Assembly (NCBI GenBank): GCA_017882715.1
Contig: JADGOY010000021.1
Location: 1 to 34,193 of the forward strand
Origin: Nakamurella sp.
GTDB lineage: Bacteria; Actinomycetota; Actinomycetes; Mycobacteriales; Nakamurellaceae
Length of the DNA: 34,193 bases
Reading direction: 5' to 3'
The notes under the pieces are model-generated. The model did not search any database and had not been told where the DNA came from. It saw nothing but the letters and a program-made list of their open reading frames with translations. The translations under genes and the position numbers were made by a program. This document shows, piece by piece, positions 13,601-22,182 of this stretch (position 1 is its first letter; the number at the start of each line of letters is the position of its first letter).

Positions 13601-14272
13601 ATGCCGCAGCCGTTGAACAAGATCATCGATCCGGGCTGGGCCGAGGCCTTGCAGCCGGTCGCGGGGGGACTCACCCAAATGGGCGACTTCCTGCGCGCCG
13701 AGGTGGCTGCCGGGCGCCAGTACCTGCCCGCCGGTCCGCACGTCCTTCGCGCCTTCCAGCGGCCGATGGACCAGGTCAGGGTGCTGGTGGTGGGGCAGGA
13801 TCCCTACCCCACGCCGGGCCACCCGATCGGGCTGTCCTTCGCTGTCGATCGTCATGTCCGGCCGCTGCCCAGGTCGCTGGGCAACATCTATCGGGAGTTG
13901 CGCGACGACGTCGGCATCGCCCCGCCGCCGCACGGCGATCTGACCGCGTGGACCGATCAGGGGGTACTGCTGCTCAATCGGGTACTCACCGTCGCGCCGG
14001 GCCGACCGGCTTCGCACCGCGGCAAGGGCTGGGAACCCATCACCGAAGCGGCCATCCGGGCGCTGGTGGCCCGCGGTGGGCCGTTGGTGGCCATCCTGTG
14101 GGGACGCGACGCCCAGACTCTCACGCCGATCCTGGACGGCGTGCCGATCATCGCCTCGGCACACCCGTCACCGATGTCGGCCGACCGCGGGTTCTTCGGC
14201 TCCAGACCCTTCTCCCGGATCAATACCTTGCTGGCCGAACAGGGCGCGCCGGCCGTCGACTGGGCCCTGTGA
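13601..14272 (+). CDS. ung: Uracil-DNA glycosylase, family 1
   Basis: Ung removes uracil from DNA to start base-excision repair. The protein is 223 residues, normal for the family. The water-activating aspartate is D67 in GQDPYP, and the catalytic histidine is H188 in AHPSPMS (family HPSPLS). [11 protein letters not shown] matches the GVLLLN substrate-binding strand. The ATG has a TAACCT box 6 bases upstream and no ribosome-binding site, suggesting a leaderless message. Its stop overlaps the GTG of the MFS gene (GTGA). The thiL-ung order is the same as in mycobacteria. Confidence 0.97.
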
Positions 14273-15423: not shown

Positions 15424-15549
15424 TTGGCGGGAAGCTGAACGCGGGGGGGCAGGATTCATCCAGATCGCGGCATGTCCGGTAACGGCGCACCGCTTACTGT
15501 GACGCACCCGGACTCGTGGCAGCGGGATCGGCTCGGGAGAAGGTCAACC

Positions 15550-16398
15550 ATGACGCAGGACGACTTGCCGGCGGTGCGGATACCTCACAAGGAAATGGTG
15601 CGGCTCGGCATCTGGATCGCGGTGCGGGTGACCGTCTCCATCGTCCTGCTGCTCGCCGCCTACTACTTGGTTCCGACGCCCGATGCCGGCACCCACTCGG
15701 ACCTTCCCTGGTTGTTGGTCGCACTGACGATCTTCGGCATCATCGTGGCGGTCCAGGTCCCGGCGATCGCGAATTCCAAGTACCCGAACCTGCGTGCTGT
15801 CGAGGCGCTGTCCGTGACGCTTCCGCTCTTCTTGCTGATTTTCGCCCGGATCTACCTCTCCAATTCCCTCGGTAACCCGGCGTCGTTCTCCGAGTCGCTG
15901 GATCACACCAAGTCGTTGTATTTCACCATCACGGTTTTTGCCACGGTCGGCTTCGGCGACATCACCCCGGAGACCAACCCGATGCGGCTGTTGGTGAGCG
16001 CGCAGATGCTGCTCAACCTGGTGTTCATCGGTCTGGTGATCAGGCTGCTGACCGGCGCGGCTCGGCGGGGGGTGGCCAAACGCCGGGCTCCGGCGCAGGT
16101 GGACGCGAAGGCCGCAGACGGTGGCGGTACCGGTGAGAAGACAAACGGCACCCCTGACGGGGGTGATGCCGCAGCTCGCCACCAACACGACGGTGAGCAG
16201 GATCCGCTCGACAACACTCCGCTCGACAACACTCCGCTCGACAACACTCCGCTCGACAACACTCCGCTCGACAACACTCCGCTCGACAACACTCCGCTCG
16301 ACAACACTCCGCTCGGGAAGAATCCGTCTCAGCACAACCAGCCTGACGACGAGGACGGCTCGGCAGGCGATTCCCCCGGCCGATCGAGATCCGATTGA
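15550..16398 (+). CDS. Potassium-channel-like membrane protein with PLDNT-repeat tail
   Basis: The protein is 282 residues. Four hydrophobic helices are visible: about 17-40, 56-78, 85-108, and 143-170. Between helices 3 and 4 a pore loop carries the selectivity filter TVGFGD (132-137), the hallmark of K+-selective channels. The cytoplasmic tail (about 175-282) is hydrophilic, with seven perfect PLDNT repeats and an acidic end. No RCK/TrkA-N ligand domain follows. The ATG at 15550 has GGAGAAGG about 6 bases upstream; an in-frame start at 15472 lacks one. It stands alone between the MFS gene and the convergent CobT-like gene. The gating signal is unknown. Confidence 0.88.
   Translation: MTQDDLPAVRIPHKEMVRLGIWIAVRVTVSIVLLLAAYYLVPTPDAGTHSDLPWLLVALTIFGIIVAVQVPAIANSKYPNLRAVEALSVTLPLFLLIFARIYLSNSLGNPASFSESLDHTKSLYFTITVFATVGFGDITPETNPMRLLVSAQMLLNLVFIGLVIRLLTGAARRGVAKRRAPAQVDAKAADGGGTGEKTNGTPDGGDAAARHQHDGEQDPLDNTPLDNTPLDNTPLDNTPLDNTPLDNTPLDNTPLGKNPSQHNQPDDEDGSAGDSPGRSRSD
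16204..16308 (+). repeat. 15-bp minisatellite, seven copies, in the channel gene
   Basis: The unit CCGCTCGACAACACT is repeated seven times without a mismatch, then an eighth copy breaks off after CCGCTC. It is in frame and encodes PLDNT. Complete identity, including third codon positions, points to recent expansion by slippage. Copy changes would keep the frame because the unit is 15 bases. Confidence 0.97.
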
Positions 16399-16499: not shown

Positions 16500-17651
16500 T
16501 CAGAGCAGGTCGGGATCCCACGCGTCGATGGCGTGTTCGGAACGGGTGACCGGCCGGGGTAACCCGACGCCCGCGGCGTCCGGGGCGAGGACAGCGTCCA
16601 CGGCCTGGGCCGCCGCCCGGAGTGATGGCACCACCAGCAACGCGGCGACGCCGGATCCGGCAGTGATCGACCAGTCCGTGAGCGGTTCCCGCCCGAGCAT
16701 TTCCAGGAGGCGGCGGTGCCCGCGCTCCGGTGAGACCGAGCTGGCCAGCAGGTAGCTGTCCGCGCCGGGCGCGATGCGGTGCGCCAGCACCCCGCACACG
16801 GTGGACGGCAGATCGTGGATCAGCACCGGGGTCCGGCGGATGGCGGCCTGTGCGATGAAACCGGTGAGTGCGGCGAGGTCGGCGCCACCGCCGGTGCGTA
16901 GCAGGGTCAGCACGTCGGTGCCGGCCCGCCGGACCCGGAACAGGGCGTCCCGCACGGCTGCGGCTTTGGTGATCCAGGCGGCGTCATCGATGCCCGATCC
17001 GCGGGTGGTCGCGTCCACCGGTTCCATCCCGGTCAGCGCGGCGACCAGGACGGAGACGGGGGTGCTGACGCCAACTCCGCAGACCGCGCCGATGAGCAGG
17101 TCGGCGCCCTCATCGATCTCGGTATCGGCGACCCGGCGGCCGGTGTCGATCGCCGCCGAGAGTTGCTCGTCGTCCAAAGCATCTTCGAGGTCGATGCGAC
17201 GGCTCGGTCGGGGTGCTACAGGTGGTGCTTCGTCGGCAGAGTCCTCGCTGCCTCCGGTGACCCCGCCGGGCCCCGACCCGGCGTTCGCGAGCTGCGCGGC
17301 GGGATCGGGGCGGATACCCACATCCACCAGCCGGACACCGACCCCGGCGACCGCGGCCAGTGTCGCGGTCAGCCCGACACCGGCGATGAGATCCGCTGCC
17401 CTGCGCCCGGTGTCGGCGGGAATCGCGGCCGACACACCCAATTCCGCGATCCCATGATCGGCGGCCATCACCACCAGTCGCGGGCGATGCGGTGCCAGCG
17501 GCCCGGTCGCCGAGCCACGGGCCGCGGCGATCGAGTCAAGGACCGCTCCCCAGACACCCAGCGCACCGGCGGGCAGCTGGTCTCGCCGGGCGGCCGCGCT
17601 CGCCGCCACGGTCGGATCCGGCGGGGGGACAGCCGGAAGATCCAGTGTCAT
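16500..17651 (-). CDS. CobT-like protein (nicotinate-nucleotide:DMB phosphoribosyltransferase family) with altered active site
   Basis: The protein is 383 residues and is recognisably CobT throughout: VVMAADHGIAELGVSA, SGIDDAAWITKAAAVRDALFRVR, GGADLAALTGFIAQAAIRRTPVLI, and SVSPERGHRRLLEMLG. CobT activates dimethylbenzimidazole for the lower ligand of cobalamin. Two acidic active-site segments are changed. The family GD/EMGIGNTT reads GAVCGVGVSTP, and LGEGTGA, holding the catalytic glutamate, reads ITAGSGVA. A roughly 20-residue Gly/Ser/acidic insert lies near residue 125. No other cobalamin genes are in the window and no cobalamin riboswitch is apparent upstream. It may be a non-catalytic or repurposed paralogue. 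The ATG at 17651 is chosen because it gives a normal CobT N-terminus. Confidence 0.85.
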   Translation of the reverse strand: MTLDLPAVPPPDPTVAASAAARRDQLPAGALGVWGAVLDSIAAARGSATGPLAPHRPRLVVMAADHGIAELGVSAAIPADTGRRAADLIAGVGLTATLAAVAGVGVRLVDVGIRPDPAAQLANAGSGPGGVTGGSEDSADEAPPVAPRPSRRIDLEDALDDEQLSAAIDTGRRVADTEIDEGADLLIGAVCGVGVSTPVSVLVAALTGMEPVDATTRGSGIDDAAWITKAAAVRDALFRVRRAGTDVLTLLRTGGGADLAALTGFIAQAAIRRTPVLIHDLPSTVCGVLAHRIAPGADSYLLASSVSPERGHRRLLEMLGREPLTDWSITAGSGVAALLVVPSLRAAAQAVDAVLAPDAAGVGLPRPVTRSEHAIDAWDPDLL

Positions 17652-18249: not shown

Positions 18250-19410
18250 ATGACCGACTTCGCCGAACCCGCTGAATATGCCGACTTACGTGCCGCCGTC
18301 CGGGAGATCACCCAGTCCCACGGCCCGGCCGCGTATGCCGAGCACGGGCGCACCTCCACCCCGATGTCCGGGCTGTGGAGTGACCTGGGCAAGGCCGGTT
18401 TCATCGGCATCAACGTGCCGGAGGAATTCGGTGGCGGCGGGGCCGGGATGAGCGAGTTGGCAGTGGTCGCCGAGGAGTCCGCTGCGGCCGGCTGCCCGCT
18501 GCTGACGCTGCTGGTGTCCAGCGCGATCGGGGTCGAGATCCTGCGCCGGCACGGATCGCCCGAGCAGCAACAGGAATGGCTGACCCGGCTGGCCGACGGC
18601 AGCACCAAGATCGTCTTCGCGATCACCGAACCCGACGCCGGCAGCAATTCCCATGACGTCACCACCGCGGCCAGGCCGGACGGCGGCGGCGGCTACCTGA
18701 TCACCGGACAGAAGTACTACATCTCCGGTGTCGACGAGGCCTCCGCGATCCTGACCGTCACCCGAACCGGCACCGATCCGGTGACTGGCAAGGCACAGAT
18801 CTCGCTGTTCATCGTGCCGGTGGACGCACCCGGGCTCAGCTGGAACCGGCTGGAGGTCGCCGCGCAGATTCCGGACCGCCAGTACACCGTCTTCTATGAC
18901 GACGTGTGGGTGCCCGCCTCCGCGCTGGTCGGCGGCGAGGGCCGGGGCTGGCAGTCGTTGTTCGACGGGCTGAACCCCGAGCGGATCACCGCGGCCGCGC
19001 TGGGCGTCGGCATCGGCCGGTACGCGGTCGCCACCGCCGCCGAGTACGCCCGCGGCCGCAGCGTCTGGGGCCAGCCGATCGGCGCGCACCAGGCAGTCGC
19101 CCACCCGCTCGCCAAGGCCAAGATCCAGGTCGAGCTCGCGGCGCTGATGACCGCCAAGGCGGCCTGGTTGTACGACCAGGGGCAGCCCGCAGGTGAGGCC
19201 TCGAACATGGCGAAGTACGCCGGTGCCGAGGCCGCCATCGCGGCGGTGGACGCCGCGATCCAGGTGCACGGCGGCAACGGCCTGTCCGTCGAATACGGCC
19301 TGATGCCGCTGTGGGGGATGGCCCGGTTGCTGCGGATCGCGCCGGTCAACAGCGAGATGGTGCTCAATTACGTCGCCCAGCACACCCTCGGCCTGCCCAA
19401 GTCCTACTGA
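18250..19410 (+). CDS. Acyl-CoA dehydrogenase family protein
   Basis: The protein is 386 residues with the full flavin-enzyme fold: helical N-terminal domain, beta domain with VFAITEPDAGSNSHDVTTAAR (FAD/substrate contact), and C-terminal four-helix domain with the VHGGNGLSVEYGL motif. The family oxidises acyl-CoA thioesters with FAD. The usual YEGT segment with the catalytic glutamate is replaced by LRIAPVNSEMVLNY, seen in some actinobacterial FadE-like subfamilies, so the base may be elsewhere and substrate class is uncertain. The ATG at 18250 has GGGAG 5 bases upstream; a GTG at 18223 is a less likely start. It stands alone with a palindrome-rich upstream region. Confidence 0.92.
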   Translation: MTDFAEPAEYADLRAAVREITQSHGPAAYAEHGRTSTPMSGLWSDLGKAGFIGINVPEEFGGGGAGMSELAVVAEESAAAGCPLLTLLVSSAIGVEILRRHGSPEQQQEWLTRLADGSTKIVFAITEPDAGSNSHDVTTAARPDGGGGYLITGQKYYISGVDEASAILTVTRTGTDPVTGKAQISLFIVPVDAPGLSWNRLEVAAQIPDRQYTVFYDDVWVPASALVGGEGRGWQSLFDGLNPERITAAALGVGIGRYAVATAAEYARGRSVWGQPIGAHQAVAHPLAKAKIQVELAALMTAKAAWLYDQGQPAGEASNMAKYAGAEAAIAAVDAAIQVHGGNGLSVEYGLMPLWGMARLLRIAPVNSEMVLNYVAQHTLGLPKSY

Positions 19411-19464: not shown

Positions 19465-22182
19465 GTGACCACGACCGCCGAACGCGACGAACTGCCGAGC
19501 AGAGAACTGGCAACCCAGTACGACCCGGCGGCGGTCGAGGTACCCCTGTACCGGCGGTGGGTCGAGGCCGGCTACTTCCGCGCCGACGAGCAGCGGGTGC
19601 TCTCCGGTGAGCGCCGGCCGTTCTCCATCGTGCTGCCCCCGCCGAACGTGACGGGCAACCTGCACGTGGGACACGCGCTGGATCACACGCTGATGGACAT
19701 CCTGGCCCGCTGGCACCGGATGTCCGGTGACGAGGTGCTCTGGCTGCCCGGCATGGACCACGCCGGCATCGCCACCCAGACGGTCGTCGAACGCCAGCTC
19801 GCGGTCGACGGCAAGACCCGCCACGACTTCGGCCGCGACCTGTTCGTGCAGAAGGTCTGGGATTGGAAGCAGGAGTCGGGCGGGGCGATCCTGGGACAGA
19901 TGAAGCGTCTCGGCGACTCGGTCGACTGGGACCGCGAGCGGTTCACCCTGGACGACGGCCTGTCCGACGCCGTGCAGACGATCTTCAAGCAGCTGTACGA
20001 CGAGGGGCTGATCTACCGCGCCGAACGAATCATCAACTGGTGCCCGGGTTGTCGGACCGCGCTGTCCGACATCGAGGTCGAGCACAGTGAGGACGCCGGC
20101 GAGCTGGTCTCCGTGCGGTACGGCTCGCTCGACCCGGACGGCGACAGCATCGTGGTCGCGACGACCCGACTGGAGTCGATGCTCGGGGACACCGCGGTTG
20201 CCGTGCACCCGGACGACCGCCGGTATTCGCAGCTGGTCGGCCGAACGGTGCTGCTCCCGCTGGTCGGTCGGGAGATCCCGGTGGTGGCCGACGATCACGT
20301 GGAGCCGACGTTCGGCACCGGCGCGGTGAAGGTGACCCCGGCGCACGACCCGAATGACTTCGAGATCGGCCGCCGCCACGGCCTGCCGATGCCCACCATT
20401 TTGGACGAGTCGGCTCGTATCACTGATACCGGAACGCCTTTCGACGGCATGGACAGGTTCGAGGCCCGGGCCGCGGTCAAACAGGCGCTGCGCGAGCAAG
20501 GCCGTATCGTCGGCGAGCGGGTGCCCTACATCCATGCGGTCGGTCACTGCTCCCGGTCCGACGACGTGATCGAGCCGCGGCTGTCCACCCAGTGGTTCGT
20601 CAAGGTGGAACCGCTGGCGAGGGCCGCCGGGGACGCGGTCCGCGACGGCCGCACCGTCATCCACCCCCAGGAGTTGGCCGCCCGGTACTTCGACTGGGTC
20701 GACCACATGCACGACTGGTGCATTTCCCGGCAGTTGTGGTGGGGGCACCGGATCCCGGTCTGGTATGGCCCCGACGGTGAGGTCCGTTGCGTCGGGCCGA
20801 ACGAGGAGCCGCCGGGGGATGGCTGGACCCAGGACCCGGACGTACTGGACACCTGGTTCTCCTCCGCACTGTGGCCGTTCTCCACCATGGGCTGGCCGCA
20901 CCAGACCGACACGCTCAGGGCGTTCTATCCGACGTCGGTGCTGGTCACCGGCTACGACATCCTGTTCTTCTGGGTCGTCCGGATGATGATGTTCGGGCTG
21001 TATGCCACCCACGACGAGAACGGCGGACAGCACGTCCCGTTCCGCTCGGTCGCTCTGCACGGATTGGTGCGCGACCAGTACGGCAAGAAGATGTCCAAGA
21101 CCCGCGGAAACACCGTCGACCCCCTGCAGTGGATCGAGGACTACGGCGCCGACGCGGTGCGGTTCACCCTGGCCCGCGGGTCGAACCCAGGCGCCGACCA
21201 GGCGATCGCCACCGAATGGGTCGCCGGTGGCGGGAAGTTCTGTTCCAAGCTGTTCAACGCCACCAGGTTCGCCATGATCAATGGGGCCACCGTGCCGCAA
21301 ACCCCACTCGACGCGCGGGCGCTCACCGCCGCGGACCGCTGGATCCTGGACCGGCTCGACGAGGTGATCACCCAGACCACCGACCTGCTGGCCGATTTCC
21401 AGTTCGGCAAGGCGGCCGAGGGGCTGTACCACTTTGCCTGGGACGAGTTCTGCGACTGGTACCTGGAACTGGCGAAGATCCAGATCGCCGGCGCGGCAAC
21501 GGATACCACGGCCAGCAGCGGGCGAGTGGACACCACTCGTGCGGTGCTCGGGACGGTGCTCGATGGGCTGCTGCGGCTGCTGCACCCGTTCGTTCCGTAC
21601 GTCACCGAGACCCTGTGGACCTCGCTCACGGGCGGGGAATCGCTGGTGATCGCCGACTGGCCGCGGGCTTCCGGTCGGTCCACTGATCCGACCGCGACCA
21701 CCTGGGTCGCCGACGTGCAGGCATTGGTGACGGAGATCCGCCGGTTCCGCGCGGATCAGAACCTCGCGCCGTCCAGGAAGGTGCCCGCGACGCTGAACGC
21801 CGACGCCGAGGCGGGTCCGGGCGACCGGGCGCGTGCGCTGCTGACCACCGCGGCCGCGCTGACCCGGCTGGAGCCGGCGAGCGAATCGTTCACCGCGACA
21901 GCGGAGATCCGGCTGTCGCTGTCTGCGGGGCAAGCGGTGACGGTCCGCGTAGACACCTCCGGAACCATCGACACCGCGGCCGAGAAGACGAGGCTCAGCA
22001 AGGATCTCGTGGCTGCGCGGAAGGAGATCGCCGACACGGCAAGGAAACTGGGCAATCCGGAATTCATCGGAAGGGCGCCGGTCGTGGTCGTCGACAAGAT
22101 CCGGGCGCGCGCGGCGAAAGCCGCCACCGACGTGGACAGCCTGACGGCGCGGCTCGCCGCGATGGACGGGGCGGTGACGTGA
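19465..22182 (+). CDS. valS: Valine--tRNA ligase
   Basis: ValS charges tRNA-Val and edits threonine. The protein is 905 residues, within the family range. The class I signature HVGH is at 67-70 ([18 protein letters not shown]) and the KMSKS loop reads KMSKT at 542-546. The CP1 editing domain ([38 protein letters not shown]) is intact. The end carries the coiled-coil arm that contacts tRNA ([29 protein letters not shown] shortened here in description). Start GTG at 19465 is supported by the TAAACT box 6 bases upstream. The stop overlaps the folC GTG by 4 bases. Confidence 0.98.

Follow-up and report, generated by a model that had tools for sequence, protein, structure and literature searches.

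A CobT-fold protein of Nakamurella that has lost both catalytic acids and has probably taken on a new role

What does a protein with the fold of CobT do once the acidic residues of the CobT active site are gone? This question is raised by a gene in the 34,193-nucleotide stretch of Nakamurella sp. DNA that we analysed as a whole (the window), whose product belongs to an altered CobT form of this genus named here CobT*. The overall CobT fold, which the original prediction had assumed to be kept, is indeed recovered at two levels. The window protein covers the Pfam profile PF02277 over its full length (236.8 bits against a cut-off of 22.6, E = 5e-70), and its AlphaFold model (pLDDT 88.4, pTM 0.87) superposes on Salmonella CobT with a Z score of 42.6 and an rmsd of 2.3 over 327 residues (28% identity to 4kqi). 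By profile match and by fold, CobT* is a member of the PF02277 superfamily, and nearly the whole chain is shared with CobT proper (TIGR03160; Salmonella 1d0s, Thermus 1wx1). The NCBIfam cut-offs for CobT are missed (TIGR03160, 195.2 vs 319.3; NF000996, 229 vs 306). In-frame start codons lie further upstream, but the start of the relatives agrees with the ATG at 17651, which was retained.

The two active-site segments had been read as GAVCGVGVSTP and ITAGSGVA, with both acids missing, and profile alignment to 1d0s confirmed the readings and the losses. In this alignment, Salmonella E174 corresponds to V190 and E317 to S333, while L175 and N179 are further replaced by C191 and V195, respectively; G176 is preserved (G192) and the hydroxyl of T180 is kept by S196 (Table 1). 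In the Salmonella enzyme, E317 acts as general base, and the ribose 2'-OH is held by E174 (PMC9561151). None of the 17 Nakamurella copies of CobT* retains an acid at position 174, and position 317 bears a glutamate in none of them and an aspartate in one. Since every copy is changed at both positions, neither sequencing error nor chance accounts for the loss. A column-by-column comparison of the 17 copies with 43 canonical actinobacterial CobTs revealed that dozens of positions conserved in at least 90% of the canonical relatives bear a different residue in CobT*. The contrast with CobT is not limited to E174, N179 and E317: many actinobacterial invariants are gone as well and the protein also occurs without CobU and CobS. 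Mycobacterium CobT, encoded in a cobU-cobT-cobS locus (L153, L164, L180), has the RGxGIDDxxW, VRDALFR and GGADLAA segments in common with CobT*; unlike CobT*, it has a complete set of catalytic residues and scores above the CobT cut-offs (412 bits).

Table 1. Coordinates of the CobT* gene, of its altered or newly conserved elements and of its neighbours in the window
Feature	Position	Strand	Description and basis
cobT* gene	16500..17651	-	ORF, 383 aa; PF02277 match; altered active site
Residues 190-199, VCGVGVSTPV	17055..17084	-	Counterpart of Salmonella E174-LGMANTT; alignment to 1d0s and 43 canonical relatives
Asp280	16812..16814	-	Acid in 14/17 CobT*; Gly in canonical relatives; aligns with Salmonella Gly264
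Residues 329-335, ITAGSGV	16646..16666	-	Carries the E317 to S333 change; profile alignment to 1d0s
C-terminal tail RSEHAIDAWDPDLL and the residue preceding it	16503..16547	-	Conserved in 13/17 copies; alignment A1
ung	13601..14272	+	Conserved flank of CobT*; NCBIfam uracil-DNA glycosylase, 376.6 bits; synteny
Acyl-CoA dehydrogenase gene	18250..19410	+	Divergent upstream neighbour in many Nakamurella; Pfam, synteny
valS	19465..22182	+	Conserved flank; ORF, named by eye; synteny

Besides these losses, CobT* displays conserved residues of its own: Arg292 (17/17), Arg314 (16/17), Asp280 and Arg310 (14/17 each), Cys191 (13/17) and Arg84 (11/17). According to the alignments, Arg84 and Cys191 occupy the positions of Salmonella Q88 and L175, which are altered jointly in the solved specificity variant S80Y/Q88M/L175M. 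The glycine and the hydroxyl of the phosphate loop are retained in most copies, which makes a phosphorylated or nucleotide-like ligand the best guess. At the other end of the protein, 13 of the 17 copies terminate with the pattern R....[AS][ILV]..WD..L[LF]. A search of the 17 genomes for WDxxLL followed by a stop gave 11 exact matches, nine of which are CobT*; of the two outside CobT*, one lacks the terminal stop, and the idea of a docking tail common to a family of partners was discarded. A divergent group of copies (G003, G004 and G012; those of G003 and G004 were assigned to the interval between the ung and valS groups by profile match and not by a simple gene caller) is devoid of Asp280, Cys191, the phosphate loop and the tail, and the loop and the tail are also missing from the G001 copy. 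The most divergent protein (G003, 292 residues) even lacks part of the pocket wall, and the fold is still predicted (pLDDT 86.0, pTM 0.88). Because such copies persist, the canonical pocket is not kept by selection in every species.

These features bear directly on whether CobT* could still be an enzyme with a different chemistry, for instance a transferase or hydrolase acting on another nucleotide with Asp280 as acid or Cys191 as nucleophile. The conservation of both residues in CobT* only, together with the surviving phosphate-loop elements of most copies, speaks for such an activity, and the base can move within this fold, as reported for the enzyme of Methanocaldococcus jannaschii, MjCobT (PMC9561151). 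However, the three divergent genomes keep a CobT* that has neither candidate residue nor the loop, and we regard this explanation as unlikely. None of the observations points to the azole riboside that had been suggested as the ligand.

The same archaeal enzyme is an argument for a CobT* that would still carry out the CobT reaction, its general base having moved elsewhere, since residue 317 of MjCobT is non-acidic as in the window protein, Asp52 substitutes for it as the base and the enzyme is active (PMC9561151); the intact predicted fold of CobT* points in the same direction. Yet MjCobT has kept the ribose acid (Glu150; PMC9561151), whereas CobT* has a valine (V190) at this position. The distribution of cobalamin genes is also difficult to reconcile with this idea. 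Profile searches detected CobT* in 17 of the 17 Nakamurella genomes examined and a second PF02277 gene in eleven, canonical in each case. CobS and CobU are confined to exactly these eleven genomes, all of which keep canonical CobT, and CbiC is present in nine of them. In the six others (G000, G001, G004, G007, G008 and G016, of which G007 and G016 are single-contig), the searches yielded CobT* only, with no CobU, CobS or canonical CobT found, so that no user of the CobT product is apparent. The co-occurrence with CobU and CobS that is expected of a functional CobT hence fails in 6 of the 17 genomes with CobT*. The six include the genome of the window itself, in which no second PF02277 gene, CobS, CobU or CbiC was found, an absence that is less sure there because the assembly is 88.6% complete. 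The second, canonical cobT that the original prediction had asked for is present in 11 of the 17 Nakamurella genomes and was not found in the genome that raised the question. As both acids are lost and CobU and CobS are absent in six genomes, the production of alpha-ribotides for cobamides is unlikely, and we judge a working CobT very improbable.

A further suggestion had been that CobT* is a subunit of another enzyme. A precedent is the ArsAB phenol/p-cresol phosphoribosyltransferase (4hdk), in which ArsB, itself a CobT homologue that has diverged in sequence but shares the fold, acts with ArsA, the arsA and arsB genes being in tandem (PMC6461909). The fold of CobT* matches ArsAB, and a non-catalytic partner of canonical CobT could be imagined on this model. 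However, CobT* is encoded singly at its locus and not in tandem with canonical CobT, and the six genomes mentioned above, two of them single-contig, contain no other PF02277 protein with which it could pair. As a general role, the heterodimer is thus not sustained, and we give it hardly any credence. Equally far-fetched is a decaying pseudogene, which the fast divergence between species and the lost catalytic residues might evoke, since the frame is open in 17 of 17 genomes, the new residues are conserved genus-wide and dN/dS lies between 0.11 and 0.22. These ratios are simple counts on four pairs, namely 0.11 (G013/G015) and 0.22 (G011/G014) for CobT*, and 0.19 and 0.20 for two pairs of altered CobT from Pseudonocardiaceae. 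Because they resemble those of housekeeping neighbours (ValS, 0.09 and 0.17 in the same two Nakamurella pairs), neutral decay of CobT* is unlikely; canonical CobT gave 0.165 for G013/G015.

What the original prediction could not see is that the altered form is a selected subfamily that extends into the Pseudonocardiaceae. In a careful tree of 70 proteins, from which the long-branched copies of G001, G003, G004 and G012 were excluded, Nakamurella CobT* is monophyletic (100/100) and nested among altered Pseudonocardiaceae CobTs (clade support 100/99), and the copies of genus g33, whose motif is intact, branch just outside. The canonical CobTs of Nakamurella are placed apart from CobT* and in more than one group, and a single clade of all Nakamurella CobTs is rejected (AU test, p = 5e-5). 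A position of CobT* outside the altered Pseudonocardiaceae forms is also rejected, at p = 0.009 in a test picked after the tree had been seen. Since this test is post hoc and the stem is long, we consider a transfer into Nakamurella only as a possibility.

Gene order provides a second view of this history. The altered CobT of Pseudonocardiaceae occupies the position that cobT has in the Mycobacteriaceae locus asnB ... cobU-cobT-cobS ... ilvE-gcvT-pepB, and the cobU-cobT-cobS order of Mycobacterium is ancestral for these relatives of CobT*. The genes cobU and cobS still flank the altered copy in some genomes and are more often absent. At L141 (G187) and L145 (G034), the two genes still enclose the altered one at the ancestral locus; the operon may there have outlived the active site of its enzyme, as expected of an early stage. 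In Nakamurella, CobT* is bracketed by two gene groups, ddl-thiL-ung and valS-folC; profiles served to name ddl, thiL, folC and ung, and valS was named by eye from its sequence. The prediction that no cobalamin gene lies nearby holds for all window genes profiled with Pfam and NCBIfam. A search for a partner by neighbourhood yielded no gene that adjoins CobT* in both Nakamurella and Pseudonocardiaceae. Cobalamin riboswitches were detected with Rfam at four of the six canonical Nakamurella CobT loci scanned versus none of nine CobT* loci, and the Rfam scan of the window for an RNA control element near CobT* gave two tRNAs only.

In Pseudonocardiaceae, the number of CobT copies in a genome is associated with the alteration. 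When the best-matching, ancestral-type copy of each Pseudonocardiaceae genome was scored for D/E174, N179 and E317, it was altered in 0 of 24 single-copy versus 20 of 30 multi-copy genomes read (Fisher p = 1e-7, kinship ignored), and by genus in 0 of 10 single-copy versus 9 of 10 multi-copy genera (Fisher p = 1e-4, kinship ignored). The ten multi-copy genomes with an unaltered copy all belong to genus g33. The second copy was canonical in the six cases read out of the 30 multi-copy genomes.

Together, these observations are best explained by a CobT that was freed by replacement and then remodelled under selection for a function apart from nucleotide-loop assembly, probably a binding or regulatory one, a reading to which we assign a probability of roughly 0.6. 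The ancestor would be the CobT of the Mycobacteriales asnB-cobUTS-ilvE-pepB locus. The gain of a second, canonical CobT would have released the old copy from phosphoribosyl transfer, with active-site residues lost stepwise in Pseudonocardiaceae. The Nakamurella protein has shed not only E174 and E317 but also numerous residues that are invariant in CobT proper. Its gene now adjoins valS, it has acquired conserved residues and a C-terminal tail of its own, and it persists even in genomes where CobU, CobS and canonical CobT were not found. As a regulatory or accessory protein, CobT* may accommodate a metabolite in its reshaped pocket and/or use its body or tail to contact another protein. The loss of the CobT reaction, deduced from the alignment, the CobU/CobS-independent distribution and the lost invariant residues, is well supported; alpha-ribazole phosphate is presumably no longer made by CobT*, and the protein has probably taken on a new job in the genus. 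The output of ligand binding would be regulation or the binding of a partner. Methylmalonyl-CoA mutase and MetH are kept in 17 of 17 genomes. Nakamurella thus uses cobalamin, and CobT* may have a role connected with this cofactor. By analogy with MjCobT (PMC9561151), the main way in which this reading could be wrong is a moved general base, with Asp280 as first candidate.

On a broader scale, we tentatively propose that CobT* founds a non-cobamide family, in which the fold may have been recruited after replacement as a metabolite-sensing or partner-binding regulator and of which the Pseudonocardiaceae forms may be surviving intermediates. A literature search, mostly outside the subscription journals, turned up no description of altered actinobacterial CobTs. 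As genes of this type clear the Pfam CobT cut-off, they may be named CobT by homology, and such naming could inflate the predicted B12 synthesis or salvage in Actinobacteria. The passage from an intact to a partly and then a fully altered pocket also offers a graded natural series for the loss of a reaction under continued selection. It raises the question of what else the CobT fold does that is worth keeping where CobU and CobS are not found.

Finally, several minor observations were made along the way. CobT changes at 179 and/or 317 also occur at L108 (G217), L112 and L113 (family f2), and L187, L197 and L202 (Streptomyces). In a quick tree, these copies and further altered CobTs (from families f2 and f8, from Streptomyces and from other groups) fall outside the Nakamurella-Pseudonocardiaceae clade, which hints at additional independent alterations of actinobacterial CobT. 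The canonical CobT of G011 and G014 (L054:8897-10693 and L055:7966-9783) carries a fused nitroreductase-family domain at its N-terminus, resembling the BluB/CobT2 fusions described earlier (PMC4657239). In the window, the two tRNA genes are located at the left end (24-95 and 219-291, Rfam). A perfect 15-base tandem repeat of 7.5 copies (16203-16315) lies in the gene for an ion-channel-family protein (15472-16398, PF07885), where it gives rise to LDNTP repeats in the C-terminal tail.
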